DNA of 64,000 bases from Mucilaginibacter segetis (GTDB lineage Bacteria > Bacteroidota > Bacteroidia > Sphingobacteriales > Sphingobacteriaceae), in NCBI RefSeq assembly GCF_016522075.1, contig NZ_JAEHFW010000001.1, positions 1,116,001 to 1,180,000 of the forward strand, in the 5' to 3' direction. A model generated the notes under the pieces. It had not been told where the DNA came from, ran no database searches, and saw nothing but the letters and a program-made list of their open reading frames with translations. Both the position numbers and the translations under genes were made by a program. Positions 35,679 to 53,726 of the stretch are shown here, piece by piece (position 1 is the first letter of the stretch; each line of letters starts with the position of its first letter).

Positions 35679-36260
35679 TTATTCAATCAAAAACACCGTC
35701 ATGCTTCTTGCGCCGTGGGCACCAACAACCAATGATTGCTCTATGTCGGCAGTTTTTGAAGGGCCTGCTATAAATGTTCCAAAACTATAACCTGCATGGT
35801 CTATTTTCTCGTATGCCTCATGCATATTATCTACAAGATCATTTACATTCAACACAACAACTAAGTTTTGAGAAATAAAGGGAAGTACTCTTTCACCTAT
35901 AAGTTCTTCCGTTACCCATATTGCGCCATTTTCAGCAACACCAAAATGCCCTTTAATTACGGCCAGTTCAACGTTTTGCAGGGAATGAGGCAAAGCTGTA
36001 TCACTTTGCAGACTTTTAAGATCCGCAAGGTCGGTCATGTTAAGTATGCGCTGATCGGTAATAGTCACTGAGCTTATGTAAGTAAATATGTCATCATTTT
36101 TGCTGGCGCATACAACTTTTCCACCAATGGTAGTTAGTGTTTTTATGAATTTATCAGTAATGCTATCATCGTCAACCTTGTTAAATTTTATTTCCGGTAA
36201 AGGGCTTAAAACTGGTTGGTTTGCACGTATTGCGGCAAGTATTTTATCTCTTTCCGTCAT
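35679..36260 (-). CDS. lutC: Lactate utilisation protein C (LUD domain)
   Basis: The 193-residue LUD-domain protein is one of three LutABC subunits that oxidise L-lactate to pyruvate. Landmarks are the N-terminus MTERDKILAAIRANQP, NVELAVIKGHFGVAENGAIW, GERVLPFISQNLVVVLNVND and GTFIAGPSKTADIEQSLVVG with HGARSMTVFLIE at the end. The gene overlaps lutB by one base and is last in the rhamnose operon. It has no cysteines of its own for Fe-S clusters, as expected. A lactate function is supported by the upstream aldolase/dehydrogenase that produces L-lactate. Confidence 0.9.
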   Translation of the reverse strand: MTERDKILAAIRANQPVLSPLPEIKFNKVDDDSITDKFIKTLTTIGGKVVCASKNDDIFTYISSVTITDQRILNMTDLADLKSLQSDTALPHSLQNVELAVIKGHFGVAENGAIWVTEELIGERVLPFISQNLVVVLNVNDLVDNMHEAYEKIDHAGYSFGTFIAGPSKTADIEQSLVVGAHGARSMTVFLIE

Positions 36261-37636
36261 TATTCTTTCCGGTTTTTAGCATACCATTCTCCAAATGAAG
36301 CGTTTGGCGGCTGTGGCATATCGCGTTGTTTATACCAGGGGTTTAACTTATTATTTATAGCAAATGGGGCATATTTTAGTACCCATCTGCCAACTTTACC
36401 ACCCGCATGGTAGGCAGAGGGTGATGAAAGTGTGAAACTCATCATTTTCATCGCGACTGTTTTAGATTTAGGAGTGTAGCCATTTTTTACGATTACCTGT
36501 CGCCATTTATATAACTGCTGGTGAATATCGATTTTAACAGGGCAAACATTTGAACATGATCCGCACAGGGTTGATGCAAAGGGAAGATCCGAATACTTTT
36601 CCATGTCCAGATTTGGAGTAAGTATGGAGCCTATAGGGCCTGCTATAGCGCTATGATAACTGTGACCGCCACTGCGGCGGTAAACCGGACAGGTATTCAT
36701 ACATGCCCCGCAACGGATGCATTTTAATGAATTACGAAAATCCTCGCGACCTAATTGTTTACTACGGCCATTGTCAACAATGATCAAATGAATTTTTTTA
36801 CCGGAACGTGGTCTGCGGAAATGACTGGAATATGTGGTAATAGGCTGGCCTGTAGCGCTGCGGGTGAGCAACCGCAAAAACACACCCAAATGTTTTCTCT
36901 CGGGGATTATCTTTTCAATTCCCATGCTCGCGATATGAATATCGGCCAAATGGGCGCCCATATCTGCATTACCTTCGTTGGTACAAATCACGAATTCTCC
37001 GGTTTCGGCAACAGCAAAATTTACACCTGTTAAGGCAGCCCTGCGTGTCAGGAACGTATCGCGTAAATGCTGTCGCGCGGCTTCCGTTAATAACTGCGGA
37101 TCGGCATTACCTTCAGGTGTGCCCAGGTGAACATGAAAAAGATCGCCTATTTCTTCTTTCTTTTTATGGATACAGGGCAGAACAATGTGGCTGGGCGGTT
37201 CTTTGGCTAACTGTACAATGCGCTCCCCCAGGTCAGAGTCGATAACCTCAAGCCCGTTGTTCTCCATGTATTCGTTCAAATGGCATTCTTCGGTCAGCAT
37301 CGACTTGCTTTTAACCATTTTTGTGATGCCATTAGCTGTTAACAGGTCAACTACTATTTTATTATGTGCCGCAGCATCAGCCGCCCAATGAACAATAACC
37401 CCGTTCTTCTCGGCATTTTCCTCAAACTGCTGCAAATAGCCGGACAGGTTTGACAGCACATTCTCCTTTATTTTTGAAGCCGTATCGCGTAAGTATTCCC
37501 ACTCCGGTAGTTGATGAGCGGCCTTATCTCTTTTTTGGCGCACCCACCAAAGTGTTTCGTCGTGCCAATCTACACGTTCTTCATCTTTGTTAAATTCAGT
37601 TGCTAATTCAGCATGATTTTTTGTGACATTCTGCAT
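36260..37636 (-). CDS. lutB: Lactate utilisation protein B (iron-sulfur, LUD domain)
   Basis: The 458-residue protein has an N-terminal LUD domain (ENAEKNGVIVHWAADAAAHN, KSMLTEECHLNEYMENNGLE, EGNADMGAHLADIHIASMGI) and a C-terminal ferredoxin-like part with two cysteine sets: CIRCGACMNTCPVYRRSGG around residue 305 and CGSCSNVCPVKID around 360. It ends with a domain rich in basic and aromatic residues. It likely passes electrons from lactate oxidation to the quinone pool via LutA. It overlaps lutC by one base and follows lutA by two bases, so the three are translationally coupled. Confidence 0.93.
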   Translation of the reverse strand: MQNVTKNHAELATEFNKDEERVDWHDETLWWVRQKRDKAAHQLPEWEYLRDTASKIKENVLSNLSGYLQQFEENAEKNGVIVHWAADAAAHNKIVVDLLTANGITKMVKSKSMLTEECHLNEYMENNGLEVIDSDLGERIVQLAKEPPSHIVLPCIHKKKEEIGDLFHVHLGTPEGNADPQLLTEAARQHLRDTFLTRRAALTGVNFAVAETGEFVICTNEGNADMGAHLADIHIASMGIEKIIPERKHLGVFLRLLTRSATGQPITTYSSHFRRPRSGKKIHLIIVDNGRSKQLGREDFRNSLKCIRCGACMNTCPVYRRSGGHSYHSAIAGPIGSILTPNLDMEKYSDLPFASTLCGSCSNVCPVKIDIHQQLYKWRQVIVKNGYTPKSKTVAMKMMSFTLSSPSAYHAGGKVGRWVLKYAPFAINNKLNPWYKQRDMPQPPNASFGEWYAKNRKE

Positions 37637-37638
37637 CT

Positions 37639-38373
37639 TTATCCGGCATTTAAAATTTCAGCTAAATGGAGTACTTTTACTTTACTGCCGCGGCGGTGTA
37701 ATATCCCCTCCATATGCATCAGGCATGACATATCCACCCCGGTAATATATTCTGCTCCGTGTATTAAATGATCCGCTACCCGATCTTGCCCCATTTTTGC
37801 CGAAACCGCTTCTTCGGCAACGCAAAATGTGCCGCCAAAACCACAGCATTCATCAATGCGGTTTAACGGGACAATTTCTATCCCCTCAACCATATTTAGC
37901 AGTGTGCCCGGTTTAGAGAAAGGATCGGCCACCAGTTCGCTCATTTGTGAAAGGTGCAGACCACGTTGCCCGTGGCAGCTTTGGTGAACGCCAACCTTAT
38001 GCGGAAACTTTGCCGGTAACGATTCTACTTTTAAAACATCCGTAAGGAACGAGCTTAACTCATAAACCTTATTACTGATAACTGATGCTTCCTGCGGATG
38101 CTTGCTGCTATGCAAATGTTCCTTAACGTGTAAAACACAACTGCCGGATGGTGCCACTACATAATCAAACTGTTCAAAGTTTTTAATGAATAGTTCGTTG
38201 CAGTCTCCGTTGAGGTGTTCGTATCCTGAATTTGCCATAGGCTGTCCGCAGCAAGTTTGATTTTTAGGATACTTTACATTTACACCAAGTTTTTCCAACA
38301 GTTGCAAAGTGGCAATTGCTGCCCCCGGATAAAACTGATCGACGTAACAAGGTATAAATAAGCCAATATTCAT
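37639..38373 (-). CDS. lutA: Lactate utilisation protein A (CCG-domain Fe-S oxidoreductase)
   Basis: The 244-residue protein has two CCG domains: NQTCCGQPMANSGYEH (about residues 38-53) and RIDECCGFGGTFCVAE (about 175-190). CCG motifs bind Fe-S or heterodisulfide-type clusters in the LutA/GlpC/HdrB families. The N-terminus MNIGLFIPCYVDQFYPGAAI is the typical LutA start. It overlaps the kinase gene by four bases. With LutB and LutC it forms the L-lactate oxidation complex. Confidence 0.93.
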   Translation of the reverse strand: MNIGLFIPCYVDQFYPGAAIATLQLLEKLGVNVKYPKNQTCCGQPMANSGYEHLNGDCNELFIKNFEQFDYVVAPSGSCVLHVKEHLHSSKHPQEASVISNKVYELSSFLTDVLKVESLPAKFPHKVGVHQSCHGQRGLHLSQMSELVADPFSKPGTLLNMVEGIEIVPLNRIDECCGFGGTFCVAEEAVSAKMGQDRVADHLIHGAEYITGVDMSCLMHMEGILHRRGSKVKVLHLAEILNAG

Positions 38374-39743
38374 ATGCTAATAGTTTGACTGGCGGAGTAA
38401 TATTTTAGCTGTATAATATCATTAGGGATAGGTCTTCTATTCCATTCCTTGTGAATGGCTAATGCGGCTCCTACTGCAGTTGCCTGCGCCATTGATGCTG
38501 AAAAGACCTCAATAGAAGGGAACGCCATAGCCAGCAAATGCATATAAACACTGTTTTTGCTGAATCCGCCGTCAACAAATAAGCGTTTTACTTTTGTGCC
38601 CTTTAAAACCAATTGTGTGGAGTAGATTTGCTGGTTAACCAGATCCATTACCAACTGGTGGTAGGCATGTATGTCATTCCTGAATTCGCTTAGCTCTCTG
38701 TTATCAAATACATTATTAATCGAACTGTTTATTTCTGATTTTTCTCTGACTTTCAGATAACTGACAATTCCGGGGTCAAACTGCACATTACGATACTTAA
38801 TGATATTAGTATTAAAATTGGCAGCTATGCGTTTTATTTGTTTTTCATGTTCGTAGCCCGAAAATAACCTCGAGGCCTTAACCGGTTTCCCCTGATATTG
38901 CAGATAACAAAGACAATCGTTATTTAATTGATCAACAGTTAACGGTAACTGGTTAAAAGGATTAAGGCTGATACACCATGTACCGGTTGAGATCAGGATA
39001 AAGGGCTCATGGAAATTGAAAAGATAGGGGATAAGCGCGGCAGAACTATCATGCAAACCAACCCCAACTTTGTAATTATTACCCGGAAATAAGGCAGGAA
39101 TAGCCACATTTGCAGGTAAGATTGGCGCCAACTTCAGGGCGATGCCTTCGTGTTGGGTCCATTCATGATACCTGTTTTTTTCAAAATCCCAAAGCCCGGT
39201 GTGGCATCCTATACTGGTAAGATCAGAGCATGGCCTACCGGTGAATAGGTAGCTCATATACTGGGGTAAATGCAGCGCGTATTTTATCCGTTTAAACAGC
39301 TCTGGTTTTTCATGTTTTAACCGGTATAGCTGTAAACCGGAGTTTAAACTACCTAACGCAGGCGAAGCGGTTTGAAGCGTTAACTGATCTTTTCCGCCAT
39401 ATTGTGTATAGAATTTATTGCTGATATCTTCCGGATACTCCTTCAGGTAGTTATATAATGGCGTAAGGGGTTTACCATCATCACCTATATAAACAAAACT
39501 TGCCCCATAGGTGGAAAAATTTACCGCTTTCACTTTAAATTCGTTCATGCGGAATATTTCGCTTAATGAATCATATACTGATAACCTTAAGCTTTCAATA
39601 TTTTCACAAGGAAAACCGTCCTCATCCGTTGTTTCAATAAATCTCGCCGATTTTTCGAAAACAATGTTGTAGTCTTCATCAAACAAGAATAATTTCTTGT
39701 TGGTTTTTCCCACATCAAACACCACTATTACGGGCTTACTCAT
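38370..39743 (-). CDS. rhaB: FGGY-family kinase, probable L-rhamnulokinase
   Basis: The 457-residue FGGY kinase carries the N-terminal phosphate-binding motif VVFDVGKTNKKLFLFDED, the second-lobe motif ILISTGTWCISLNPF and the adenosine motif RLFVDGGFSKNSVYMHLLAM. Phosphorylation of L-rhamnulose at C1 is inferred from its place between the isomerase (18 bases upstream) and lutA (4-base overlap), in the operon with the aldolase. It is shorter than E. coli RhaB (489) and its N-terminal DVGKTNKK differs from the E. coli DxGxxS type, so it may be a non-orthologous rhamnulokinase. An L-fuculokinase-like specificity cannot be excluded by sequence alone. Confidence 0.85.
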   Translation of the reverse strand: MSKPVIVVFDVGKTNKKLFLFDEDYNIVFEKSARFIETTDEDGFPCENIESLRLSVYDSLSEIFRMNEFKVKAVNFSTYGASFVYIGDDGKPLTPLYNYLKEYPEDISNKFYTQYGGKDQLTLQTASPALGSLNSGLQLYRLKHEKPELFKRIKYALHLPQYMSYLFTGRPCSDLTSIGCHTGLWDFEKNRYHEWTQHEGIALKLAPILPANVAIPALFPGNNYKVGVGLHDSSAALIPYLFNFHEPFILISTGTWCISLNPFNQLPLTVDQLNNDCLCYLQYQGKPVKASRLFSGYEHEKQIKRIAANFNTNIIKYRNVQFDPGIVSYLKVREKSEINSSINNVFDNRELSEFRNDIHAYHQLVMDLVNQQIYSTQLVLKGTKVKRLFVDGGFSKNSVYMHLLAMAFPSIEVFSASMAQATAVGAALAIHKEWNRRPIPNDIIQLKYYSASQTISI

Positions 39744-39761: not shown

Positions 39762-41036
39762 CTATAAACCGGTGGCAACCGTTTTTAATCCGCGTTCTTT
39801 TATTAATTGTTCTCTTACATTTATTTTTCTGAACAAACTTATAGGGTCAATTGAACCCCCCGACCGCTTACTCGCCTCAGCAACAAGCGGACGAACATCT
39901 GTACGATAGGCTTGCTGCAATATTTCCTGAGCAATGGCTACGTCATTATTTTGCTGGGCATTAACTAATGCTTGTTTATCAATTATTAAGGCCTGCGCAT
40001 AAGCTATTTTTATAGCCTGTACAGATTGCAGCAGGTCTTCTATCGGGTCTTTAACATTATGCGAGGCATCTATCATCCAGCCTATATCAGTTGCGTGGGT
40101 CATTCCTCGCGCATCCATGCCCTCTACCAGTTCATTAAATATTAAAAATAGCTGATAGGGGCTGATACTGCCTACGGTAAGATCATCGTCTCCGTATTTT
40201 GAATCATTAAAATGAAAGCCCGCCAGTTTGCCTTCCATCAATAATAACGATACAATTTGCTCGATATTAGTATTGGGTAAATGATGACCCAGATCTACCA
40301 AAGTAGCAGCTTTACTGCCCAATTTACTTGATAATAGATACGATTGCCCCCAATCACCTATGGTGGTAGAGTAAAAGTTTGGCTCAAACGGTTTGTATTC
40401 TATCCATATTTTCCAATCGTCCGGAAGTTCGTTATAGATCTCCTCCAGGCTTTCTAATGTATTTTGGAAGGCTCCCCTAAAATTTAATTGCCCGGGGAAA
40501 TTTGAACCATCAGCCAACCATACTGATAAGGCTTTGGAGTTGAGCTGAACTCCGTATTTGATCACCTCGATATTATGCTGAATGGCCTGCTTGCGTACTT
40601 CCTTATCTACATGATGCAATGAGCCAAATTTGTAGCTGTGTTTTTGATCGGGCTGATCCTGAAAGGTATTGGAATTTACCGCATCGAAATGCAGACCCAA
40701 CTCCGACGCTAGACTTTTTATAGATGCCGCGTTATCAGGAATATCCCACGGGATATGTAAGGAGATGGAGTTGCTGGAACGGTTAAGGGCATTTATTACA
40801 CCCACATCCGCTATCTTTTCTTCAAGACTACGTGGCTCTCCGCCACCGGAGAATCTGCCAAAGCGGGTGCCACCTGTGCCCAAAGCCCAGCTTGGTATGG
40901 CTACATTAAAAGCCATCAGTTTTTTTAAAACGTTATCTATATCTGCAATATCAGCTGCCAGGTGTTCAAAGTTCCGCTGATGTTTGCCGGCTAACTGATG
41001 ATTGTATTCATCAATTATTTGTTTTTCTATCTGCAT
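39762..41036 (-). CDS. rhaI: L-rhamnose isomerase, RhaI (Pseudomonas-type)
   Basis: The 424-residue TIM-barrel isomerase converts L-rhamnose to L-rhamnulose. It matches the RhaI group rather than E. coli RhaA. Visible metal/active-site segments are WIEYKPFEPNF (Glu), ATLVDLGHHLPNTN (Asp, His), AGFHFNDSKYGDDDLTVG (His and Asp cluster) and THATDIGWMIDASHNVKDP (Asp). The N-terminus contains the loop PSWALGTGGTRFGRF, which shapes the pocket in this group. It lies 18 bases upstream of the kinase gene and 67 bases downstream of the aldolase gene, with a hairpin in that gap. Broad epimer use is known for the family. Confidence 0.93.
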   Translation of the reverse strand: MQIEKQIIDEYNHQLAGKHQRNFEHLAADIADIDNVLKKLMAFNVAIPSWALGTGGTRFGRFSGGGEPRSLEEKIADVGVINALNRSSNSISLHIPWDIPDNAASIKSLASELGLHFDAVNSNTFQDQPDQKHSYKFGSLHHVDKEVRKQAIQHNIEVIKYGVQLNSKALSVWLADGSNFPGQLNFRGAFQNTLESLEEIYNELPDDWKIWIEYKPFEPNFYSTTIGDWGQSYLLSSKLGSKAATLVDLGHHLPNTNIEQIVSLLLMEGKLAGFHFNDSKYGDDDLTVGSISPYQLFLIFNELVEGMDARGMTHATDIGWMIDASHNVKDPIEDLLQSVQAIKIAYAQALIIDKQALVNAQQNNDVAIAQEILQQAYRTDVRPLVAEASKRSGGSIDPISLFRKINVREQLIKERGLKTVATGL

Positions 41037-41103: not shown

Positions 41104-43221
41104 TTATCGTACAAAGGCGGTTGCTACACCCCCGTCAACATTAAGCACATTCCCGGTAGATTTATTAAGCAAGCCCCCTGCAAATGCAAAGCAAGCATTA
41201 GCAATATCATCAGGTAATATTTGTTCGTTAAGTAATGTTCTTTTAGCGTAATAAGCCGGTAATTCATCAACGGTAATGCCGTATGCCTTGGCGCGCCCTT
41301 CGGCCCATCCGCCTGCCCATATATTACTGTCGCTTATTACCGCGTCAGGGTTTACTACATTTACTCTTATTTTATCGGCGCCTAATTCAACAGCATTTAA
41401 CCTGCTAAGGTGTAACTGTGCAGCTTTAGCACTGCCATACCCGGCATTGTTAGGGCCGCTTACCAGCGCGTTTTTGCTTACTATGTTTATTACATCTCCG
41501 CCAATACCCTGCTTTTTCATAACAGCGGTTGCTGCCTGTGTCACAAAAAACTGTCCTTTTACTAATACGTCGTATAATAAGTCCCAGTCTTTGTCGGTGG
41601 TATCTGCAATGGTTTTAGATATGGATAAGCCCGCATTATTTACAACAATATCTACTCCGCCAAATTCAAGCGCGGCAGTATCCATTGCGCTTTGTATCTC
41701 CTGGTTGTTGGTTACATCCATTACTGCTAAGGCATAGGTATCTTTGCCATAAAGGCTATTAAATTCTTCGCCCGCTCCTGATAGTCTTTCCGAGTTCATG
41801 TCGCTTAAAACCACAACAGCGCCTTCGTCTACAAACTTTTTAGCTATGGCTTTGCCGATACCGCCAGCACTGCCCGTTACCAACGCAACACGACCTGATA
41901 GCGATTTTGGTTTAGGCATACGTTGTAACTTGGCCTCTTCCAGTAACCAATATTCAATATCAAAAGCTTCCTGTCGCGGTAAGGAAGTGTATTCTGATAT
42001 GGCTTCGGCGCCTTTCATTACGTTGATGGCGTTGGTATAAAACTCAGCTGCAACACGTGCGGTTTGTTTGTTTTTAGCAAATGTGAACATGCCTACACCC
42101 GGATATAATATCACCACCGGATTGGCATCTCTTATAGCAGGGCTGTTAGCGTGTTTGCAATTGTTGTAATAATCAGCATACATTTTGCGATAAGCCTCAA
42201 ATGCAGGAGTCAATCTTTCTTTCAGCCTTTTTACATCAGACAGGTCCTCATCAGGTGCAAGCTCCAACACAAGCGGGCTTATTTTGGTGCGTAAAAAGTG
42301 GTCGGGGCAGCTGGTACCCATAGGAGCAAGCCTTTCCAAATCGTTAGAGTTAATGAATTCTAAAACCCTTACATCATCGGTGAAATGCCCTATCATTTTG
42401 TTTTCTGATGAACAAAAGCCACGTAGTACAGGTGCAAGCGAAGCGGCTTGTTTTTTCCGTTCATCTGCTGCAAGGCTTTCCATTTTCTGGCCACCAAATA
42501 CAGGCCCTTTTTTGCCATAATTTGCTTCCAGATAATCCGCGCATTTTTCAATTACCTCCAAAGTATTTATGTAGCTTTCGTAAGCGGTATCGCCCCAGGT
42601 AAATAAACCGTGAGAGCCTAACATAATGCCTCGTATACCGGGATTATTATCTAAACATTCCTTTAACTGCAAGCCCAGGTCAAAACCGGGGCGTTGCCAG
42701 TTAACCCAACCAATTGCACCGTTAAAAAGTTCCTGGGTTATTTTTTCTCCATCCTTTGCAGCAGCAATTGCTATGGCTGCGTCCGGATGAAGGTGGTCGA
42801 TATGTTTAAATGGTAAAAAACCATGTAAAGGGGTGTCAATTGAAGGAGCCTTTGATGCCAGATCAAATATGCTGTGGTTAAAAAGTTCAACCATTTCGTC
42901 TTCATGCTCAATGCCGCGGTAAACATTTTTAAGGCTGCGCAGTCTGTCTACATACAAAGCAGCAAGTCCGCTTTTTTTAAGAGTACCAATGTCTCCGCCT
43001 GATCCTTTTATCCACATCACCTCTACGTCTTTACCTGTAAGCGGATCTTTATCAATTAATTTACATGACGTGTTGCCCCCGCCGTAGTTGGTAAGGCGCA
43101 GATCGGCACCTAACAGGTTCGAACGATAGATCAGCAATGCTACTTCATCGCCTGCTAACTCCGCTGCTTTAGCATCGTCCCATAAATAACTTACGTGTTT
43201 AAACTGTGTTGTAATAGACAT
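41104..43221 (-). CDS. rhaEW: Bifunctional L-rhamnulose-1-phosphate aldolase/L-lactaldehyde dehydrogenase
   Basis: The 705-residue fusion has an N-terminal class II aldolase domain (about 1-400) that splits rhamnulose-1-phosphate into DHAP and L-lactaldehyde; LTNYGGGNTSCK, DTPLHGFLPFKHIDHLHPDA and GIMLGSHGLFTWGDTAYESY carry the metal-binding histidines. The C-terminal SDR domain (about 430-705) has the nucleotide loop VALVTGSAGGIGKAIAKKF, the NNAGLS segment and the YGSAK catalytic tetrad part. It oxidises the lactaldehyde to L-lactate. The arrangement matches the RhaD-aldolase/dehydrogenase fusion (TIGR02632). It is the second gene of the operon, 26 bases after rhaT. Confidence 0.95.
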   Translation of the reverse strand: MSITTQFKHVSYLWDDAKAAELAGDEVALLIYRSNLLGADLRLTNYGGGNTSCKLIDKDPLTGKDVEVMWIKGSGGDIGTLKKSGLAALYVDRLRSLKNVYRGIEHEDEMVELFNHSIFDLASKAPSIDTPLHGFLPFKHIDHLHPDAAIAIAAAKDGEKITQELFNGAIGWVNWQRPGFDLGLQLKECLDNNPGIRGIMLGSHGLFTWGDTAYESYINTLEVIEKCADYLEANYGKKGPVFGGQKMESLAADERKKQAASLAPVLRGFCSSENKMIGHFTDDVRVLEFINSNDLERLAPMGTSCPDHFLRTKISPLVLELAPDEDLSDVKRLKERLTPAFEAYRKMYADYYNNCKHANSPAIRDANPVVILYPGVGMFTFAKNKQTARVAAEFYTNAINVMKGAEAISEYTSLPRQEAFDIEYWLLEEAKLQRMPKPKSLSGRVALVTGSAGGIGKAIAKKFVDEGAVVVLSDMNSERLSGAGEEFNSLYGKDTYALAVMDVTNNQEIQSAMDTAALEFGGVDIVVNNAGLSISKTIADTTDKDWDLLYDVLVKGQFFVTQAATAVMKKQGIGGDVINIVSKNALVSGPNNAGYGSAKAAQLHLSRLNAVELGADKIRVNVVNPDAVISDSNIWAGGWAEGRAKAYGITVDELPAYYAKRTLLNEQILPDDIANACFAFAGGLLNKSTGNVLNVDGGVATAFVR

Positions 43222-43247: not shown

Positions 43248-44327
43248 TTATTTTATTGAATTACCATATCCAACTACCAATACCGAAATAATAATGGTTG
43301 CTATACCCGCTACTACTGTATAAATAGCCTTTTTGCTTACCCCTTTCCATTCATTAAGCACTAAGCCCCAAGCGTTAGCAATAAGTATGATAAAGGCCAT
43401 GTGCAGTATCCAGGAGCTTGCACCATTTCCTAATTTACTTTCGCCCATTCCATAAAAAAAGAACTGCAAAAACCAGGTGATGCCTGCAAGTGCGGAAAAG
43501 AAATAGTTTTTTAACAGCGGTTTTTTTGCATCTGTATAATTGCTGAATGTTTTATTACGGGCATTTAATATCATGCACCAAATAAAATTAGTAGTAAGGC
43601 CTCCCCATAACAGCACTACGTAAGTAACATTGTTCCGAAATAAAAAGTTTCCCTGACCGGGGTGTGAAGCCTGCCATACTGCATTTGCGGTTTCGGCCAT
43701 GGTTTTCCCGGCTTCTATCCCGAAATTAAAACAGGCGCTTAATACACCCGATACTATCGCTACAAAAATTCCTAACCCAAAACGGTACTCTGTGTTTTCG
43801 GCGCCAACAATATTTTTTTTTGTCAGCTCTTTTTCTTTCATGATACCGGCCTTTCCGCAAATTATAATGCCGATAACACTTATTACTATTCCCAATAGCA
43901 CCATTTGGCCCCACGGATTGCTCAGCATCATGCTGAAGGTGTCTTTACCCTCTTGAGGAAAGAAGTTATAATATACAGACGGTATGATGGAGCCAAAAAC
44001 AGCGCACAGCCCTAAAATAATAGTACTGCCTAACGCTACCCCTAAGTATCGTACACCTAAGCCGTAGGTAAGCCCGCCTATTCCCCATAATACGCCGAAG
44101 AAATAGGTTAATAACAAGATATGTCCGTTGGTTGCTTTTATGATCTCAGTAAAGTTTGGTATGGTAAGCCATGCAGCCAGCGGCGGAACGATCAGCCATG
44201 AAAAAATACCTCCAACTATCCAGAAACTCTCCCAGGCCCATCCTTTTACTTTTTTAAACGGGATGTAAAAACTTCCCGAAGCAAACCCACCAACAAAGTG
44301 GAATATAATGCCAAATATTGCCTGCAT
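43248..44327 (-). CDS. rhaT: L-rhamnose/proton symporter
   Basis: The 359-residue inner-membrane protein has ten predicted helices and the RhaT features: GFASGSFYIPFKKVKGWAWE near the N-terminus, GGLTYGLGVRYLGVALGSTI in helix 4, and the C-terminal FFYGMGESKLGNGASSWILH. RhaT imports L-rhamnose with protons. It is first in the seven-gene minus-strand operon, so transcription probably starts in the 309-base divergent region. Length matches the family (about 344 in E. coli). Uptake of the monosaccharide fits the two secreted rhamnosidases on the other strand. Confidence 0.95.
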   Translation of the reverse strand: MQAIFGIIFHFVGGFASGSFYIPFKKVKGWAWESFWIVGGIFSWLIVPPLAAWLTIPNFTEIIKATNGHILLLTYFFGVLWGIGGLTYGLGVRYLGVALGSTIILGLCAVFGSIIPSVYYNFFPQEGKDTFSMMLSNPWGQMVLLGIVISVIGIIICGKAGIMKEKELTKKNIVGAENTEYRFGLGIFVAIVSGVLSACFNFGIEAGKTMAETANAVWQASHPGQGNFLFRNNVTYVVLLWGGLTTNFIWCMILNARNKTFSNYTDAKKPLLKNYFFSALAGITWFLQFFFYGMGESKLGNGASSWILHMAFIILIANAWGLVLNEWKGVSKKAIYTVVAGIATIIISVLVVGYGNSIK

Positions 44328-44381: not shown

Positions 44382-44401
44382 AACCATCCCCATCTGTTAC
44401 C
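44382..44401 (+). promoter_or_regulatory. Candidate operator copy 1 of the rhamnose locus
   Basis: AACCATCCCCATCTGTTACC. Its second half begins a perfect inverted repeat, ATCTGTT-acc-AACAGAT (44392-44408). The core CCCCATCTGT recurs at 50291-50309 (inverted) and, less exactly, at 44507-44526. Confidence 0.55.
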
Positions 44402-44506: not shown

Positions 44507-44526
44507 GGTAAGGATGGGTATGGTTA
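44507..44526 (-). promoter_or_regulatory. Candidate operator copy 2 of the rhamnose locus
   Basis: On the minus strand this reads TAACCATACCCATCCTTACC, sharing TAACCAT, CCCATC and TTACC with copy 1 at nearly the same spacing. It lies about 110 bases before the plus-strand gene at 44637. Confidence 0.5.
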
Positions 44527-44636: not shown

Positions 44637-46346
44637 ATGAAAATTACACTCAACAGTAAACTGCGGAAAATTACAGGCGGATTTATTTGCCTTTTTTTAT
44701 TTAGTTCTTTTTATTGCTGTACCAATAATAATGCAAATGCAACAGCAGAAAAGGAAACTGAAACACCGAAAATTGTAAATATTGTCAACTTTATCCGTCT
44801 ACTGGAGCCGCGTGATCCGGCAATTACCGAAGATGTTTTATACCAAACCGTTGTCAAGCAGGTAGATATCATGAAAAAATATAAGCTTGGCGGTACTTTT
44901 TTGTTGCAATACGATGCCTTAATGGATCCGCGATACCAAAAACTATTAAAATCCTTACCCCGCGATTCATTCGAAATAGGTGGCTGGTGGGAAATTCCGC
45001 AACCGCTGGTAGAAAAAGCCGGTCTTAAATGGCGTGGGCGGTACCCCTGGGACTGGCGGGCCAATATTGGTTTTTCTACAGGGTACACTCCTAAAGAGCG
45101 GGAGAAGCTTATAGATGTGTACATGGCTGATTTTAAAAATATATTCGGCTATTATCCTAAATCTGTTGGCTCATGGTTTATTGATAGTTACAGTTTAAAC
45201 TATATGTATGAAAAATATCATATTGTAGCATCAAGTAATTGCAAAGATCAATATGGTACCGACGGTTACACCCTTTGGGGCGGTTACTGGAACCAGGCTT
45301 ATTATCCAAGTAAGATCAATTCTTACATGCCGGCGCAGAATGCAGAAAACCAAATCCCGGTACCTATTTTCAGGATGCTGGGCAGCGATCCCATACGCCA
45401 GTATGATAATGGTTTGGGAACAACCCGCCAGGGCGTGGTTACGCTGGAGCCGGTTTATAAATTTGGCGGTGGCGATTCTACTTGGGTTAACTGGTTTTTA
45501 AAATCGTTTACAGAGGATAAAGCATTAGGATTTAATTATACACAAGCGGGGCAGGAGAACTCCTTTACCTGGGACGCTATGGCTAAAGGCTTTGAGTTAC
45601 AAATGCCACTGATTGCCCGTTTAAGGGATGAACATAAGATAAAGGTGGAAACTATGGAACAATCCGGCCGATGGTTTAAGAGTAAATACAAAGTTACGCC
45701 GCCTACATCTTTTACGGTGAGTAAGGATATAGAGGGCAGCGATCTTAAAACAGCTTGGTTCAACAGTCGTTTTTACCGGGTTAATTTTATATGGGAAAAC
45801 GGTAGTCTCCGCATACGCGATCTGCACTTGTTTAACGAGAATTTCCCTTCTGCTTATCATTCCAAAGTGGCTACATCAAACGAATGCGTGTTTTTTACAC
45901 TCCCAGTTGTTGATGGATATATTTGGAGTAAAAGCAACGAAATAGCCGGATTAAGGTTAAAGGCTGTTATTGACGGTAAAGAAGTATTACTAAAGGGAGG
46001 CGAACCGGTTTATACCCATACCAGCCCAGGCTCCTTACATATATCATGGCCGTTAATCACTATAAAAGGTTCGGTTGAGATGGATCTGGATGAGAAAATG
46101 CTGAAGATAAAAATGGTGAGCAGTAAAAGGTATCCATGGTATTTTGATTTGACCACATCCTCGTCGGCTAAGTTGCCGTTTGATGAGATTAAAGCCAATG
46201 AGTTGGATTGCCGGTTTGAAGGAATGAATTATGTGGTTAAAGCAGATAAGGGATCCTTTTCAAAACCCGGAAATGGTGTGGTATTTAGGTTAAACCCCGA
46301 GGATAATTCAATAGTGTTTAATCTGTCGGACACCTCCACGAAATAA
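44637..46346 (+). CDS. Unrecognised secreted protein in the rhamnose locus, possible deacetylase-like barrel
   Basis: I do not recognise this 569-residue protein as a named family. It has an N-terminal hydrophobic export segment with cysteines at 27-28 (weak lipobox). Residues about 45-330 look like a TIM-barrel-type domain of the polysaccharide-deacetylase kind: DIMKKYKLGGTFLLQYDAL (about 77-95), FEIGGWWEIPQPLVEKAG (112-129), FGYYPKSVGSWFIDSYSLNY (170-189), then SSNCKDQYGTDGYTLWGGYW (199-218). A beta-rich C-terminal region follows. The canonical NodB His-His-Asp triad is not evident. It is first on the plus strand opposite rhaT, 116 bases before the GH78 gene, so a role in processing rhamnose-containing glycans is likely but not shown. 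Confidence 0.8.
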   Translation: MKITLNSKLRKITGGFICLFLFSSFYCCTNNNANATAEKETETPKIVNIVNFIRLLEPRDPAITEDVLYQTVVKQVDIMKKYKLGGTFLLQYDALMDPRYQKLLKSLPRDSFEIGGWWEIPQPLVEKAGLKWRGRYPWDWRANIGFSTGYTPKEREKLIDVYMADFKNIFGYYPKSVGSWFIDSYSLNYMYEKYHIVASSNCKDQYGTDGYTLWGGYWNQAYYPSKINSYMPAQNAENQIPVPIFRMLGSDPIRQYDNGLGTTRQGVVTLEPVYKFGGGDSTWVNWFLKSFTEDKALGFNYTQAGQENSFTWDAMAKGFELQMPLIARLRDEHKIKVETMEQSGRWFKSKYKVTPPTSFTVSKDIEGSDLKTAWFNSRFYRVNFIWENGSLRIRDLHLFNENFPSAYHSKVATSNECVFFTLPVVDGYIWSKSNEIAGLRLKAVIDGKEVLLKGGEPVYTHTSPGSLHISWPLITIKGSVEMDLDEKMLKIKMVSSKRYPWYFDLTTSSSAKLPFDEIKANELDCRFEGMNYVVKADKGSFSKPGNGVVFRLNPEDNSIVFNLSDTSTK

Positions 46347-46462: not shown

Positions 46463-49162
46463 ATGATGTTATACTTATTAAAAATTAAGAATGCGGGCAA
46501 ACTACTGGTTTTAACCGCCCTTTTCCTTACCTCGGTAATCTCATCGCCGGTTAATGCCCAAAGCGGGGCAATAGCCTTGCAGTGTGAGCATTTAGATGCA
46601 CCGCTGGGTATTGATGCGGCACATCCCCGCTTAAACTGGCAAATGGGCGACCCTACGCAAGGTGCCAAACAAACCGCCTATCAGGTATTGGTAAGTACAG
46701 ATTCTGTTCAGCTATCAAAAAATATAGCCGGGGTATGGGATTCAGGAAGAATAAGCTCTGCTAATAGCAATATTGTTTATAACGGTAAACCACTGCAGCC
46801 TTTTACCAAATACTACTGGAGTGTTAATATCTGGAACAAAGCGGGTGTAAAACTGAGTAAAAGTCGCATAGCCAGTTTTGAAACAGGTATGATGCAAATG
46901 ACCAACTGGCGGGGCAACTGGATAAGCGACTATGGCAGTATTAATACTAAACCCGCGCCATATTTCCGTAAAGTGTTCAAGACATCAAAAAAAATAAAGT
47001 CGGCACGTGCTTATATCGTGGTTGCCGGGTTGTATGAATTATATATTAATGGTAATAAGGTGGGGGATCACCGGCTCGACCCGATGTACACCCGGTTCGA
47101 CCGAAGAAACCTTTACGTTACCTATGACGTTACCAGCCAACTTCGCGAAGGTAAAAATGCCATCGGTGTGCTTTTGGGTAATGGCTGGTATAATATGCAA
47201 TCGTTGGCGGTGTGGAATTTCGATAGAGCACCCTGGCGTAATCGCCCGGCGTTTTGTTTAGATATGCACATCACTTACGATGATGGCACATCTGAAATTG
47301 TGTCAACAGATGATAGCTGGAAAACACATAGCAGTCCCATCATTTCAAATAGTATTTATACCGGCGAACATTACGACAGTCGTTTAGATATGCCCGGCTG
47401 GAGCACTGTTGATTTTGATGATAAAAATTGGAAGGGTACCATGCTACGCTCAGCACCATCAAAAAATATAGTAAGCCAGGTAATGTACCCTATTAGAAAT
47501 GTGGACGAACTGCCTGCAAAATCTATCAGGAAATTTGACGATACCACATATGTTTTTGATATCGGCCAAAATATTGCCGGGGTAACCAAAGTAAAGCTAA
47601 GAGGCGACAGCGGTACAGTAGTACGTATTAAACACGGCGAAAGGCTGTATCCTAACGGGCATGTAGATATGTCTAACATTGATGTTTACTACACACCCAA
47701 AGATAAAAGCGACCCTTTCCAAACCGATATTGTAATATTGAATGGTAAGGGTGAAGTAGAGTTTATGCCTAAGTTTAATTACAAGGGCTTTCAGTATGTA
47801 GAAATTACCAGCAGTAAACCTATCGAGCTTCATAAAGAAGATGTTACGGGATATTTTATGCATAGCGATGTGCCTGCTGTCGGCACCATCAGTTCATCAA
47901 ACCCGCTGATAAACAGGCTGTGGTGGGCAACCAATAATTCCTACTTGTCTAACCTGATGGGTTATCCTACAGATTGTCCACAGCGCGAGAAAAACGGCTG
48001 GACCGGTGACGGCCACTTCGCGGTGGAAACGGGCTTATTTAATTTTGATGGTATAACCATCTATGAAAAATGGTTGGCCGATCATCGCGATGAGCAGCAG
48101 CCTAATGGCGTATTGCCGGATATTATTCCAACAGGAGGGTGGGGATATGGCAGTGCAAATGGTACCGACTGGACAAGCACCATAGCTATTATCCCATGGA
48201 ATTTGTACTTGTTTTACGGCGATAGCAAACCCCTGTTCGATAATTACAAGAACATAAAATCGTATGTCGATTATGTTGACGGCATAAGTCCTTCGGGCCT
48301 TACGGTTTTTGGGCGTGGCGACTGGGTACCGGTTAAATCATCATCATCTCTGGAATACACCTCCTCCATTTATTTTTATGTTGATGCAGGTATTATGGCA
48401 AAGGCTGCTAAGCTGTTTAACAAAAAAGCCGACTATGAGCACTATACCGCATTAGCTGCAAAAATAAAAAAGGCGATAAACGATAAATACTTTAACAAGG
48501 CTACCGCCATGTACGACAAAGGTGTGCAAACTGAACTAAGCATGGCTTTGCAATGGGGTATAGTGCCCGAGGAATATAAGGCTAAAGTGGCGCAAAACCT
48601 GGCAGACCGCGTGGCTGCGGATGGCATGCACCTTGATGTGGGCGTTTTAGGCGCCAAGGCTATCTTGAATGCTTTAAGCAATAATGGTCAGGCCGAAACA
48701 GCTTATAAACTGGCTGCTCAGGATACCTATCCTTCATGGGGCTGGTGGATAGTTAACGGTGCTACCACCCTTTACGAGAACTGGAAAATTGACGCCGCCC
48801 GGGATATCTCTTTAAACCACATGATGTTTGGAGAAATAGGTGGCTGGTTCTTTAAAGGTTTGGGAGGAATATTGCCTGATGAAACCCATCCCGGCTTTAA
48901 AAATATCCTGCTTAAACCAAACTTTGTTACCGAACTGAATTATTTTACTGCAACACACAACGGGCCTTTTGGTAAAATAGTTTCTTCATGGAAAAGGTCG
49001 GGCAAAAAAGTTATTTATGATGTGGTTGTTCCGGCTAACTCTTCGGCTACCATTAGTTTTCCGAAACAGGTATCAAAAGTTACTTTAAATGGTATACAAA
49101 TAAAAAATATAAGCAGGTGTAATATACCGGCAGGCAGTTATCATTTTAATATTGTTGAATAG
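46463..49162 (+). CDS. GH78 alpha-L-rhamnosidase
   Basis: The 899-residue secreted enzyme cleaves terminal alpha-L-rhamnose from glycans or glycosides. A Sec signal peptide (LLVLTALFLTSVISSPVNAQ) is followed by an Ig-like domain (HPRLNWQMGDPTQGAKQTAY), beta-sandwich domains (AYIVVAGLYELYINGNKVGD, GVLLGNGWYN), the (alpha/alpha)6 catalytic barrel from about residue 470, and a C-terminal beta domain. The barrel has PTDCPQREKNGWTGDGH with Glu509, and GATTLYENW with Glu772, where the acidic active-site residues of GH78 lie. There is no lipobox, so it is probably periplasmic. An intact family member of normal length (about 900). Confidence 0.94.
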   Translation: MMLYLLKIKNAGKLLVLTALFLTSVISSPVNAQSGAIALQCEHLDAPLGIDAAHPRLNWQMGDPTQGAKQTAYQVLVSTDSVQLSKNIAGVWDSGRISSANSNIVYNGKPLQPFTKYYWSVNIWNKAGVKLSKSRIASFETGMMQMTNWRGNWISDYGSINTKPAPYFRKVFKTSKKIKSARAYIVVAGLYELYINGNKVGDHRLDPMYTRFDRRNLYVTYDVTSQLREGKNAIGVLLGNGWYNMQSLAVWNFDRAPWRNRPAFCLDMHITYDDGTSEIVSTDDSWKTHSSPIISNSIYTGEHYDSRLDMPGWSTVDFDDKNWKGTMLRSAPSKNIVSQVMYPIRNVDELPAKSIRKFDDTTYVFDIGQNIAGVTKVKLRGDSGTVVRIKHGERLYPNGHVDMSNIDVYYTPKDKSDPFQTDIVILNGKGEVEFMPKFNYKGFQYVEITSSKPIELHKEDVTGYFMHSDVPAVGTISSSNPLINRLWWATNNSYLSNLMGYPTDCPQREKNGWTGDGHFAVETGLFNFDGITIYEKWLADHRDEQQPNGVLPDIIPTGGWGYGSANGTDWTSTIAIIPWNLYLFYGDSKPLFDNYKNIKSYVDYVDGISPSGLTVFGRGDWVPVKSSSSLEYTSSIYFYVDAGIMAKAAKLFNKKADYEHYTALAAKIKKAINDKYFNKATAMYDKGVQTELSMALQWGIVPEEYKAKVAQNLADRVAADGMHLDVGVLGAKAILNALSNNGQAETAYKLAAQDTYPSWGWWIVNGATTLYENWKIDAARDISLNHMMFGEIGGWFFKGLGGILPDETHPGFKNILLKPNFVTELNYFTATHNGPFGKIVSSWKRSGKKVIYDVVVPANSSATISFPKQVSKVTLNGIQIKNISRCNIPAGSYHFNIVE

Positions 49163-49216: not shown

Positions 49217-50242
49217 ATGAGGAACTTTTTAAAAATATTAAAGATCGATGAGTACTCCATTACCCCTTATTATGCACAATTATATAATTCCATATTAAGA
49301 GGCATAGAAGAAAATGAAATTGATCAGAACGACGTACTGCCCTCTATAAATGATTTGAGTATTGCGTTGGATATTTCAAGAAATACTATTACCCGCGCCT
49401 ATAACGATTTAAAAAAAATCGGGGTGATCTCCTCAATTCCCGGTAAGGGATATTTTATCTCCAATACCCGGGTAGATCAGCCTGTTAAAGTGTTATTGCT
49501 GTTTAACAAATTAAGCAGCCACAAAAAATTAATGTATGATGCCTTTGCCGGGTCACTTGATCAAAAAGCTTCTATAGATTTTTATATCTACAACAGTAAT
49601 TTTAACTTTTTTAAAAAACTCCTGCTCGAAAAGTTAGATAAGTACGACAAATTTGTAATAGTACCCCATTTTATTGATAAAGCTGATAATGCCTTTGAGG
49701 TAATAAACGAAGTGCCAAAAAGCAAACTGATACTAATGGGTAAGCTGGTAAATGGGGTTACCGATAAATTTGGAGCTGTTTACGAAGATTTTGAAAGCGA
49801 TATTTTTAACGCATTGGTTGGGTTAACCGAAAAAATTAAGCAGTACGATACCTGTAGTATTGTGTTTCCAAAACAAAGCTATTTTTCTACTGATATTTTG
49901 ATCGGTTTTTTAAATTACTGCAAAACATATAATTGCGAATATGAGATCATCTCTGATCTTAAAAACGAGAAGGTACTTAAAAAAAGTTTGTATATCGTGC
50001 TTACTGAAGCAGATCTGGTTAGCCTGATAGATAAGGCAGTAAGTTCAGGCTGTAAGATAGGGGAAGATATAGGCGTGATCTCCTACAACGAAACCCCTTT
50101 AAAGCGGTTGATATTAAAAGGAATAACCACAATATCTACCGATTTTAAATTTATGGGAGAAAAAGCGGCAGAACTGGTGCTTAATAATTCTACCGAACAT
50201 ATAAAGGTGCCTTTCAATACCATCATACGGGAGTCGTTATAA
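49217..50242 (+). CDS. GntR-type HTH regulator with LacI-like sugar-binding domain (probable rhamnose regulator)
   Basis: The 341-residue protein has a GntR winged HTH at about residues 10-80 (PYYAQLYNSILRGIEENEID, VLPSINDLSIALDISRNTIT, RAYNDLKKIGVISSIPGKGY) fused to a periplasmic-binding-protein-like effector domain (VKVLLLFNKLSSHKKLMYDA, KFVIVPHFIDKADNAFEVIN, GVISYNETPLKRLILKGITT). Such hybrids in Bacteroidota regulate sugar catabolism. Sitting inside the locus between two rhamnosidase genes, it is the best candidate to sense rhamnose or rhamnulose. The shared motif near 44382, 44507 and 50291 is its likely operator. AraC-type regulators, typical for rhamnose elsewhere, are absent. Confidence 0.88.
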   Translation: MRNFLKILKIDEYSITPYYAQLYNSILRGIEENEIDQNDVLPSINDLSIALDISRNTITRAYNDLKKIGVISSIPGKGYFISNTRVDQPVKVLLLFNKLSSHKKLMYDAFAGSLDQKASIDFYIYNSNFNFFKKLLLEKLDKYDKFVIVPHFIDKADNAFEVINEVPKSKLILMGKLVNGVTDKFGAVYEDFESDIFNALVGLTEKIKQYDTCSIVFPKQSYFSTDILIGFLNYCKTYNCEYEIISDLKNEKVLKKSLYIVLTEADLVSLIDKAVSSGCKIGEDIGVISYNETPLKRLILKGITTISTDFKFMGEKAAELVLNNSTEHIKVPFNTIIRESL

Positions 50243-50290: not shown

Positions 50291-50309
50291 GGTACAGATG
50301 GGGATAGTT
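50291..50309 (-). promoter_or_regulatory. Candidate operator copy 3, before the GH106 gene
   Basis: The minus strand reads AACTATCCCCATCTGTACC, matching copy 1 in ATCCCCATCTGT and ACC. It lies about 150 bases before the GH106 start, and no such motif is seen before the GH78 gene or the regulator gene. Confidence 0.55.
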
Positions 50310-50459: not shown

Positions 50460-53400
50460 ATGTTTGTTACAACACGTAAAAAAGGATATGTTTATTTACT
50501 ACTGATAATTATACTATCAGGTTTAAGCGCCTGTATTACAAAAAAGAAAGCCGCAGTTATTCCCGTTGCTCACATGACGCCGCTCGAAACAGGTTTCATG
50601 ACTGCGCCCGATTCCATCCAAACAAGCGTTTACTGGTACTGGATATCTGATAACGTATCAAAAAGAGGCGTGATCCATGATCTGGAATCCATGAAAAAAG
50701 TGGGAATAAATCGTGCCTTTATTGGTAATATATGGCAGGATGATGTACCCGCTGGTAAGGTTAAAATATTCTCGGACGAGTGGTGGGATATATTACACGC
50801 CGCGTTAAAAAAAGCTACTGAATTAAATATAGAAATAGGCATATTTAACAGCCCGGGCTGGAGCCAGTCTGGCGGACCTTGGGTAAAGCCTGAGCAGGCT
50901 ATGCGGTACCTCACCTCCTCGGAACTTAAAATTAAAGGGCCTTTCAAATTTCACGGTAAACTTGCCACCCCGGCAAAGAATTTTCAGGATGTAAAGGTGA
51001 TAGCGTATCCCGTTGCGGATGACTATTTAAGTACCATAGATGTTCTTAAACCAAGTATAATTTCAACACCTGCTATAGAGGGGATTAATAAGCTTATCGA
51101 TAATAATGATACTACAGGGATAATTTTTACCCAGCAGACCCATTACGCTATTGATATAAAATCAGCTAAAACATATACTGCGCGCAGTTTAGTTATTGTG
51201 CCCGCCCATAACACCATGACCCTTGAAGGGGATATACAGGTGAATAACAATGGCACCTATACTACCATAAAGCATTTTATAGTTGATAGGAGCAACAGTA
51301 ACCTTAATGTGGGATTTGCTCCTTACGGTCCGGCTGCAATAGCAATCCCGGCTACCACATCAAAAAATTTCAGGGTGTTGTTTACAAAGGTATCCCAGGG
51401 TTGTGGTATTACAGAACTTAAACTATCGGGTACGCCCGTTGTAGAAGATTATATAGAAAAATCATTAGCTAAAATGTGGCAGACTCCCTTCCCATATTGG
51501 GATGCTTACCAGTGGCCTGCACAACCGGCGTTTGCAAATAATAACCTGGTTATCGACCCTTCAAAAGTTTTAGATATTTCCCAATATATGACTTCCGACG
51601 GAACCCTGACCTGGGATGTGCCACCGGGTAATTGGATGATAGAGCGCAGCGGGATGACACCTACTAACGTACAAAATGGTCCGGCATCTCCAATAGCAAC
51701 AGGCTTAGAAGCGGATAAAATGAGCAAAAAACATATTACGGAACATTTCGATGCTTTTTTGGGCCAGATATTAAAACGCATACCTCCTGAAGATCGTAAA
51801 ACGTGGAAGGTAACTGTTGAAGATAGTTATGAGACCGGCGGGCAGAACTGGACAGACGGACTTATTGAAAAATTTAAGCAGCATTACGGCTACGATCCAA
51901 CTCCGTATATTCCGGTGCTGCAGGGCAAAGTGGTAGGAAGCGAGAATAAGTCTGATCGTTTCTTATGGGACCTGCGACGCTTTGTTGCCGACAATGTAGC
52001 ATATGAGTATGTTGGAGGCTTGCGAGAGGTGAGTCATGAACACGGCTTAACCACATGGCTGGAGAATTATGGACATTGGGGATTTCCGGGTGAATTTCTG
52101 CAATACGGTAGTCAATCTGACGAAGTAGGGGGAGAGTTTTGGAGCGAAGGCAGTTTAGGTAATATCGAGAACCGGGCAGCTTCATCTGCGGCGCATATTT
52201 ACGGTAAAACCAAGGTTTCGGCCGAGTCATTTACTTGTGCCGGGCTTCCTTATTACCGTTATCCGGCAATGATGAAACAACGCGCCGACCGTTTTTTTAC
52301 CGAAGGCATTAATAATACTTTACTTCATGTATATGTAAGCCAGCCATATGAAGACAAAGCACCGGGCGTTAACGCTTATTTTGGCAATGATTTTAACCGG
52401 TTAAATACCTGGTTTTATGATATGGATATATTTCTGAAATACATCAAACGCTGCAATATGATGTTGCAGCAAGGTAAATACGTTGCAGATGTGGCTTATT
52501 TTATAAGTGAGGATGCCCCAAAAATGACGGGTGTACAATCTCCGGTATTGCCACAGGGATATTCATTTGATTATATAAACGGAGAGGTAATAAAAGCCAG
52601 GCTCACTGTAAAAGGTGGCAGGCTGGTATTGCCTGATGGTATGCAATACAGTATTTTGGTGTTGCCGCAATTAAAAACCATGCGTCCGGAACTTTTGCGA
52701 AAAATAAAAGAACTGGTTATGCAGGGTGCAGTAATATTAGGGCCTAAACCTGAGGTTTCTCCAAGTTTGCAGGGATACCCCGAAGCAGATGTGCAAGTGA
52801 GACAACTGGCCGATGAGCTTTGGGGGAATATAAATGGCACCACCATAAAAACCAATCATGTGGGTAAGGGTATGGTGATGAGTAACTTGCAATTGCAGGA
52901 AGCTTTGGATGCTATAAATGTTATACCTGACGCAAAAGTTACCAAAAGTGATTCCATTTTGTTTATTCACAGAGCGATAGCAGACGGTTCTGTCTATTTT
53001 ATCTCCAATCAAAAGCCATCATCGGTGAAAATTTCACCGCAATTCCGGATAACAGGTAAGCAGCCTGAGTTATGGGATCCGCTTAACGGCAGCATGCGCG
53101 ATCTTCCTGTTTATACACAAACGGAATTAACTACTACAGTTCCTGTAGAGCTGGCGCCATTAGAAAGTGCCTTTATCGTTTTCAGGAAAGATGCTGCCCG
53201 GGGGATACAATCAGGTAAGCAAAACTATCCTGCTCCATCCAAAGTAATTACAATTAACAGCCCCTGGGTTGTTAATTTTGACAGCAAAATGCGTGGGCCT
53301 GCTAAACCTGTAGTTTTTACAAAACTTACCGATTGGACAATCAATCCTAACGATAGTATACGTTATTATTCAGGCACTGCTGTATACCACAATAAGTTTA

Positions 53401-53726
53401 ACATTGGTAAAGTTGCCAAAGGCCAAAGCGTAATACTTGACCTGGGCATGGCAAGGGCCATTGCTAAGGTAATTGTAAATGGGAAACCTGTTGGCGGCGT
53501 TTGGACAGCTCCCTACAAAGTTGATATAACTAACGCGGTAAAGGCAGGTGAAAATACATTGGAGGTGAAGGTGGTAAATACATGGGTTAACAGGCTTATC
53601 GGGGATAGTATCCTTCCGGAGGATCAACGAAAAACATGGACCATACATAACCCTTATAATCCACAAACCGGACTGGAGTCGTCAGGCTTAATTGGGCCCG
53701 TCAGTTTAGAACTAATAAACTATTGA
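50460..53726 (+). CDS. GH106-like alpha-L-rhamnosidase lipoprotein
   Basis: The 1088-residue enzyme has a lipoprotein signal peptide (LLLIIILSGLSAC, Cys about 25). The catalytic barrel shows the GH106 style opening: SVYWYWISDNVSKRGVIHDL, ESMKKVGINRAFIGNIWQDD, and IGIFNSPGWSQSGGPWVKPE. Acidic residues in TVEDSYETGGQNW (Glu454, Glu458) and in LENYGHWGFPGE/SDEVGGEFW (Glu535, Glu555, Glu559) are plausible active-site carboxylates. Beta-sandwich domains follow, with a C-terminal galactose-binding-like module (ILDLGMARAIAKVIVNGKPV, GGVWTAPYKVDITNAVK). It likely sits on the membrane and releases rhamnose from complex glycans such as pectin side chains or arabinogalactan decorations. Linkage specificity is unknown. 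Confidence 0.92.
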   Translation: MFVTTRKKGYVYLLLIIILSGLSACITKKKAAVIPVAHMTPLETGFMTAPDSIQTSVYWYWISDNVSKRGVIHDLESMKKVGINRAFIGNIWQDDVPAGKVKIFSDEWWDILHAALKKATELNIEIGIFNSPGWSQSGGPWVKPEQAMRYLTSSELKIKGPFKFHGKLATPAKNFQDVKVIAYPVADDYLSTIDVLKPSIISTPAIEGINKLIDNNDTTGIIFTQQTHYAIDIKSAKTYTARSLVIVPAHNTMTLEGDIQVNNNGTYTTIKHFIVDRSNSNLNVGFAPYGPAAIAIPATTSKNFRVLFTKVSQGCGITELKLSGTPVVEDYIEKSLAKMWQTPFPYWDAYQWPAQPAFANNNLVIDPSKVLDISQYMTSDGTLTWDVPPGNWMIERSGMTPTNVQNGPASPIATGLEADKMSKKHITEHFDAFLGQILKRIPPEDRKTWKVTVEDSYETGGQNWTDGLIEKFKQHYGYDPTPYIPVLQGKVVGSENKSDRFLWDLRRFVADNVAYEYVGGLREVSHEHGLTTWLENYGHWGFPGEFLQYGSQSDEVGGEFWSEGSLGNIENRAASSAAHIYGKTKVSAESFTCAGLPYYRYPAMMKQRADRFFTEGINNTLLHVYVSQPYEDKAPGVNAYFGNDFNRLNTWFYDMDIFLKYIKRCNMMLQQGKYVADVAYFISEDAPKMTGVQSPVLPQGYSFDYINGEVIKARLTVKGGRLVLPDGMQYSILVLPQLKTMRPELLRKIKELVMQGAVILGPKPEVSPSLQGYPEADVQVRQLADELWGNINGTTIKTNHVGKGMVMSNLQLQEALDAINVIPDAKVTKSDSILFIHRAIADGSVYFISNQKPSSVKISPQFRITGKQPELWDPLNGSMRDLPVYTQTELTTTVPVELAPLESAFIVFRKDAARGIQSGKQNYPAPSKVITINSPWVVNFDSKMRGPAKPVVFTKLTDWTINPNDSIRYYSGTAVYHNKFNIGKVAKGQSVILDLGMARAIAKVIVNGKPVGGVWTAPYKVDITNAVKAGENTLEVKVVNTWVNRLIGDSILPEDQRKTWTIHNPYNPQTGLESSGLIGPVSLELINY

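Follow-up and report, generated by a model that had tools for sequence, protein, structure and literature searches.

An unnamed exported protein of the L-rhamnose locus in Mucilaginibacter segetis: remote homology to DUF3863 and a probable role in glycan breakdown

In Mucilaginibacter segetis the genes for the use of L-rhamnose lie beside genes for two families of alpha-L-rhamnosidase, and in their midst is one gene that belongs to no named family. What does this gene, here called X (44637..46346, + strand), encode, and does its product act on glycans that carry rhamnose? All coordinates given without a locus or genome label refer to the window, the whole stretch of 64,000 nucleotides that was analysed. 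Divergent from X lies rhaT for the L-rhamnose/proton symporter (43248..44327, -; above the cut-off of NF010024), and further along the same strand are the genes for the bifunctional rhamnulose-1-phosphate aldolase/dehydrogenase (rhaD/rhaEW; 41104..43221, -; TIGR02632 and NF006191), for L-rhamnose isomerase (RhaI; 39762..41036, -; TIGR02629 with E 5e-152, which is below the equivalog cut-off) and for a rhamnulokinase-like FGGY kinase (38370..39743, -; TIGR02627 with E 3e-15, below cut-off), the last of which other genomes also keep in their rha operon. On the strand of X, 116 bp 3' of it, follows a GH78-type alpha-L-rhamnosidase (46463..49162, +; Pfam PF17389, PF08531 and PF05592), then a GntR regulator with a periplasmic-binding-protein-like domain, which is a candidate rhamnose regulator (49217..50242, +; PF00392 and PF13377), and a GH106 alpha-L-rhamnosidase (50460..53726, +; PF17132). 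The neighbours that Pfam and NCBIfam identify, the isomerase and the aldolase/dehydrogenase included, agree with the initial annotation, which had placed X in the L-rhamnose locus next to rhaT, GH78 and GH106. After the rhamnulokinase gene come three LutABC-like lactate oxidation genes (35679-38373), named by reading their sequences; the order lut-rha is also found at locus L205 and fits the production of lactate by the bifunctional aldolase/dehydrogenase.

A conserved gene without a family name

The open reading frame of X is intact, with an ATG start, 569 codons and a TAA stop, and contains the peptides that the initial annotation had quoted from it. It is present in a single copy in the 4.09-Mb genome, as a whole-genome search showed, and has homologues at 80 loci, which are 50-81% identical and mostly full-length. 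Most of them belong to Mucilaginibacter, Pedobacter, Chitinophaga or further Bacteroidota, and a few contigs of metagenome-assembled genomes (MAGs) with homologues bear the labels Akkermansiaceae or Sedimentisphaerales. Within the same taxonomic family 50 of 301 genomes have X, and in a phylum-wide sample just 4 of 395. The single sequence has no match in Pfam, and a profile of 53 sequences found nothing above threshold there either; NCBIfam gave no match, nor did the PDB sequences, even with the 53-sequence profile. A single copy, homologues at 80 loci and the absence of any Pfam, NCBIfam or PDB-sequence match together mean that X is a real, conserved and unnamed gene. None of the family libraries searched has an entry for its family, which is a new, uncharacterised one within a known superfamily. 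The label "unrecognised" of the initial annotation consequently stands at the level of curated families; it gives way at the level of remote homology, where X is related to DUF3863, as described below. An Rfam search of the window found no family.

The first 25 or so residues (44637..44711, +) form a predicted signal sequence, a hydrophobic stretch with a low-confidence helix at residues 9-23 in the structure model. This hydrophobic segment supports secretion, in line with the original description of the protein as secreted. The region varies among homologues and its SFYCC is not a classical lipobox, so that attachment as a lipoprotein is uncertain.

Fold, remote homology and invariant acids

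An AlphaFold2 model built on an alignment of 53 homologues (pLDDT 88, pTM 0.87) has a glycoside hydrolase/deacetylase (beta/alpha) barrel, residues 42-355 (44760..45701, +; delimited from model and conservation), followed by a beta-rich C-terminal domain, residues 356-569 (45702..46343, +), which reaches pLDDT 94 when modelled alone. Both the barrel of polysaccharide-deacetylase type and the beta-rich domain behind it had been read from the sequence beforehand. The nearest PDB structure is 3LM3 (Foldseek E 1.7e-14), which in VIA-align superposes with Z 32.5 and rmsd 3.1 over 368 of 434 residues, by a wide lead over the next match at Z 19. After it come polysaccharide deacetylases, the allantoinase PuuE, GH57 amylopullulanases and GH38 enzymes, with the deacetylases and GH57 at Z of about 12-19. 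3LM3 is the protein BDI_3119 of Parabacteroides distasonis, deposited as a "putative glycoside hydrolase/deacetylase", and represents the family DUF3863 (PF12979): the DUF3863 protein of locus L068 matches it with E 1.8e-145. The kinship also appears in sequence, as the profile of X aligns with that of 21 DUF3863 proteins in hhalign (E 1.9e-5, probability 78%), X and the L068 protein find each other in pairwise BLASTP (E 3e-5), and a whole-genome search with X hits the DUF3863 gene of G165:C70 at E 8.7e-5. The agreement of structural match, profile-profile comparison and BLASTP supports distant homology between X and DUF3863. It lies under the Pfam threshold: at the gathering score of 27 bits PF12979 does not match X, and it is matched weakly by 3 of the 53 homologues (best E 0.017).

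The two families share the barrel fold and a stretch of sequence homology around YPSK..PAQ. They differ at the C-terminus, where X has a larger beta domain (about 210 residues) and DUF3863 proteins bear the 80-residue DUF3864 (PF12980), which they do match in Pfam and for which there is no Pfam match in X or among the families listed for its homologues. A literature search found no relevant paper on DUF3863 or 3LM3, and the papers searched held no biochemical data on any relative.

Other members of the superfamily are further away. CE4/NodB polysaccharide deacetylases resemble X in the barrel (Z 12-19 for many of them), whereas identity is about 10%, their metal-binding triad is missing from X and the beta domain of X is additional. 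GH57 and GH38 enzymes have a barrel of the same superfamily and behind it a region rich in beta strands (Z up to 17 for GH57 and up to 12 for GH38), yet X has neither a sequence-profile match nor a Pfam match to them and lacks the conserved His ligands of GH38. Direct membership of X in GH57 or GH38 was considered and rejected at the sequence level, where profile comparison gave no match: for GH57 Pfam gave none and hhalign E was 0.9 against two sequences, and for GH38 hhalign E was 0.38 on an unrelated stretch, the comparison profiles being small sets of 2-8 sequences each. The GH78 and GH106 rhamnosidases are genomic partners of X here, but have other folds, belong to other families and show no homology to X by any search.

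Conservation over the 53 sequences points to the likely class of enzyme. Eleven Asp and Glu residues are strictly invariant, down to 50% identity, as are many aromatic residues; the invariant acids of the barrel are D93, E119, D183, D204, D209, D251, E271, E307 and E338, and in the beta domain R378, D395, H397 and E401 are invariant. The Asp-His-His metal triad of CE4/NodB was not found in X, as the initial annotation had noticed: no His of the barrel is invariant or even conserved in more than 75% of the sequences, and H397, the sole invariant His, belongs to the beta domain. D183 follows strand beta4 (in SWFID) and E307 follows beta7, the positions of the catalytic carboxylates in retaining GH57 and GH38 enzymes; the SWFID acid in particular resembles the nucleophile position of these families, a lead rather than a test. 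Taken together, the missing metal triad, the invariant acids and the positions of D183 and E307 favour a carboxylate-based, metal-independent glycosidase. The catalytic pair could be D183 with E307, judged by position, or D251 and E271, which are kept in DUF3863 as well; residues common to both families, by the hhalign alignment and the lists of invariant positions, are Q205, Q234, D251, E271 and N308. D183 and E307, invariant in X, are not shared with DUF3863, so either the two do not form the catalytic pair or catalysis is not the same in both families.

Neighbourhoods and a shared promoter motif

The proposal that X serves rhamnose-rich glycans fares differently for the window copy and for the family. 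Across the family, rhamnose catabolic genes lie within 10 kb of a homologue at 2 of 80 loci (L028 and L048), a further homologue sits beside a rha operon at L205, and relatives of GH78 or GH106 are near 12 of the 80 (L017, L018, L023, L024, L028, L034, L048, L056, L064, L071, L078 and L080). Like most of the others, the closest homologues (78-81% identity) lie away from rhamnose genes, and for 25 of the 80 there is no partner on the same strand and no apparent operon. On a tree of 77 proteins the rhamnosidase contexts need at least five changes, which means that they were gained or lost repeatedly. As a general statement, "a family of rhamnose loci" was therefore rejected from the neighbourhood tables. 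SusD relatives occur at 21 of 80 loci (directly 5' of X at L014, L019, L021, L025 and L034) and DUF3863 at 6 of 80. The initial annotation had named, as a finding that would speak against it, homologues that for the most part stand away from rhamnose or glycan loci; they do lie mostly outside rhamnose loci, while the recurrence of SusCD, DUF3863 and glycoside hydrolase neighbours keeps the family in glycan metabolism.

Two partners recur. A full GH78 domain lies within 3 kb of at least 8 of 50 X genes in the 48 X-positive genomes, against 0.5 expected. X and GH78 are adjacent on one strand at L200-L204, with X directly preceding GH78 in several genera; at L200-L202 this same-strand pair is found even though X there has just 47-51% identity with the window protein, and at L205 X and a GH78-lut-rha operon converge. 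A DUF3863 gene lies immediately beside X in seven cases (L020, L068, L073, G063, G284, G201 and G221) and one gene away in two (L069 and L070), and DUF3863 occurs in 13 of 48 X-positive versus 5 of about 168 X-negative genomes (odds ratio 12, p 3e-6, with an approximate denominator).

Several other arrangements were seen. Genome G073 has two tandem DUF3863 genes of different subfamilies, about 49% identical (L124:69-2742 and L115:1393-4042). A divergent six-hairpin protein, about 820-885 residues long and weakly matched by PF17389, is encoded at 12 loci (among them L005:5302-7959, L006:11735-14242 and L039:2351-4876), directly 3' of X at L003, L006, L007, L039 and L047; the members tested had no NCBIfam or PDB sequence match, and this unnamed family is possibly another new glycosidase family. 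At L077 and L079 (about 2.5-11.7 kb), from gut Bacteroides/Phocaeicola MAGs, GH32, DUF2961 and a LacZ-type GH2 with ricin-B precede the X homologue, and rhamnose genes are absent.

In the host genome a promoter motif ties X to the rhamnose genes. The rhaT/X intergenic region has one word in common with the other promoters of the locus, namely with that of GH106, which is weak taken alone, since a match was also seen in one of five shuffles. In its exact form, ACYATCCCCATCTGT, the motif has three sites in 4.09 Mb against about 0.01 expected: between rhaT and X, before GH106, and in front of a FecI-FecR-SusC-SusD-DUF3863 locus, where it precedes fecI by about 180 bp. The only DUF3863 gene found in the genome is the one in this locus, at G000:C1:849.4-850.7 kb. 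A 19-bp consensus, AACYATMCCCATCYKTACC, has only four genome sites with up to two mismatches, and 23 with three mismatches compared with 10 for a backwards control. The four are the putative operators of rhaT (AACCATCCCCATCTGTTAC; 44382..44400, +), of X (GGTAAGGATGGGTATGGTT in gene sense, 112 bp before the start codon; 44507..44525, -), of GH106 (AACTATCCCCATCTGTACC; 50291..50309, -) and of the FecI/FecR/SusCD/DUF3863 locus (G000:C1:858190-858208, L157:12190), 300 kb away from the window locus; all have the same orientation relative to their own genes and lie 54-179 bp upstream. The consensus was refined on the very sites that it scores, so the third exact match is the strongest single fact.

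X thus appears to be co-expressed with the rhamnose genes in this genome, and the claim of a regulon holds for the host genome only: a scan of 149 further genomes of the genus did not find the exact motif upstream of rha genes, and the one match near rhaT falls inside its coding region. A faint word common to the regions upstream of X and GntR at L028, ATGGCATGG, was rejected as too weak to count. The regulator is probably the GntR protein encoded in the X operon. GntR relatives share a gene run with X at L048 and L073 and stand first in the locus at L034; the account of rhamnose regulons by Rodionova et al. (2013; PMC3870299) does not mention GntR regulators.

What X may do

A fold like that of enzymes which cut or deacetylate sugars and the apparent co-expression with rhamnose genes make X probably a new plant-glycan-degrading enzyme. 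We lean, by a modest degree of confidence, towards the view that X is exported and acts on glycans, most probably as a metal-independent glycoside hydrolase, that it belongs to the rhamnose regulon here and that it acts together with DUF3863 and the rhamnosidases. In such a system four promoters would be under one regulator, probably the GntR protein whose gene stands between those for GH78 and GH106; the promoters are those of rhaT (with aldolase, isomerase and kinase), of X-GH78-GntR, of GH106 and of FecI/FecR/SusC/SusD/DUF3863. Oligosaccharides from a plant glycan that bears rhamnose would enter through the SusCD pair. The part of X and DUF3863 would be to cleave linkages in the backbone or the side chains, and that of GH78 and GH106 to set free L-rhamnose for use by RhaT and the catabolic enzymes. 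A bolder version is tentative, and we would sooner expect it to fail than to hold: X would found a new glycoside hydrolase family, metal-free and of deacetylase fold, which with DUF3863 cleaves a linkage in a rhamnose-bearing plant glycan under a GntR regulator with a previously undescribed operator.

Other readings of the same data have to be weighed. The substrate might have nothing to do with rhamnose, being a general plant or microbial glycan, and the place in the rhamnose locus might be incidental; the contexts of the homologues, which include GH32, GH2, GH35/GH30/GH5, GH95, GH3, a 3-keto-disaccharide hydrolase and housekeeping genes, would suit this. The motif that X has in common with rhaT and GH106, the pairing with GH78 across genera and the repeated gain or loss of rhamnosidase contexts make it unlikely. 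Somewhat less likely still is a carbohydrate or peptidoglycan deacetylase or esterase that strips acetyl groups from the glycan before the rhamnosidases act, although CE4-type deacetylases are the next-best fold group and esterases (BD-FAE, SASA-type) occur at L064, L080 and L058. Here the loss of the Asp, His, His triad and the lack of any well-conserved barrel His weigh against it. Of the two classes that the initial annotation had offered, esterase or glycoside hydrolase, the superfamily fold and 3LM3 as nearest solved relative agree with either, and the absent triad argues against an esterase of the CE4 type; between esterase and glycosidase in general, sequence is not able to decide. X might also be a pseudoenzyme that keeps the barrel for glycan binding or another accessory role, as deacetylase pseudoenzymes of the same fold exist (7BKF, 6HPA) and X has lost the metal site; its eleven invariant acids and many invariant aromatic residues are what an active site would lead one to expect, and we consider this improbable, the most so of the three. 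The most economical reading makes X an exported hydrolase of glycans that can bear rhamnose, at work alongside DUF3863.

Through the analysis an unnamed and widespread family of Bacteroidota acquires a fold, a distant relative of solved structure and a role that can be tested. DUF3863, for which a crystal structure has been available since 2010, gains a functional lead from being co-regulated with, or adjacent to, X, SusCD and rhamnosidases. Were activity to be shown, X and DUF3863 would be two new enzyme families for the breakdown of plant glycans.
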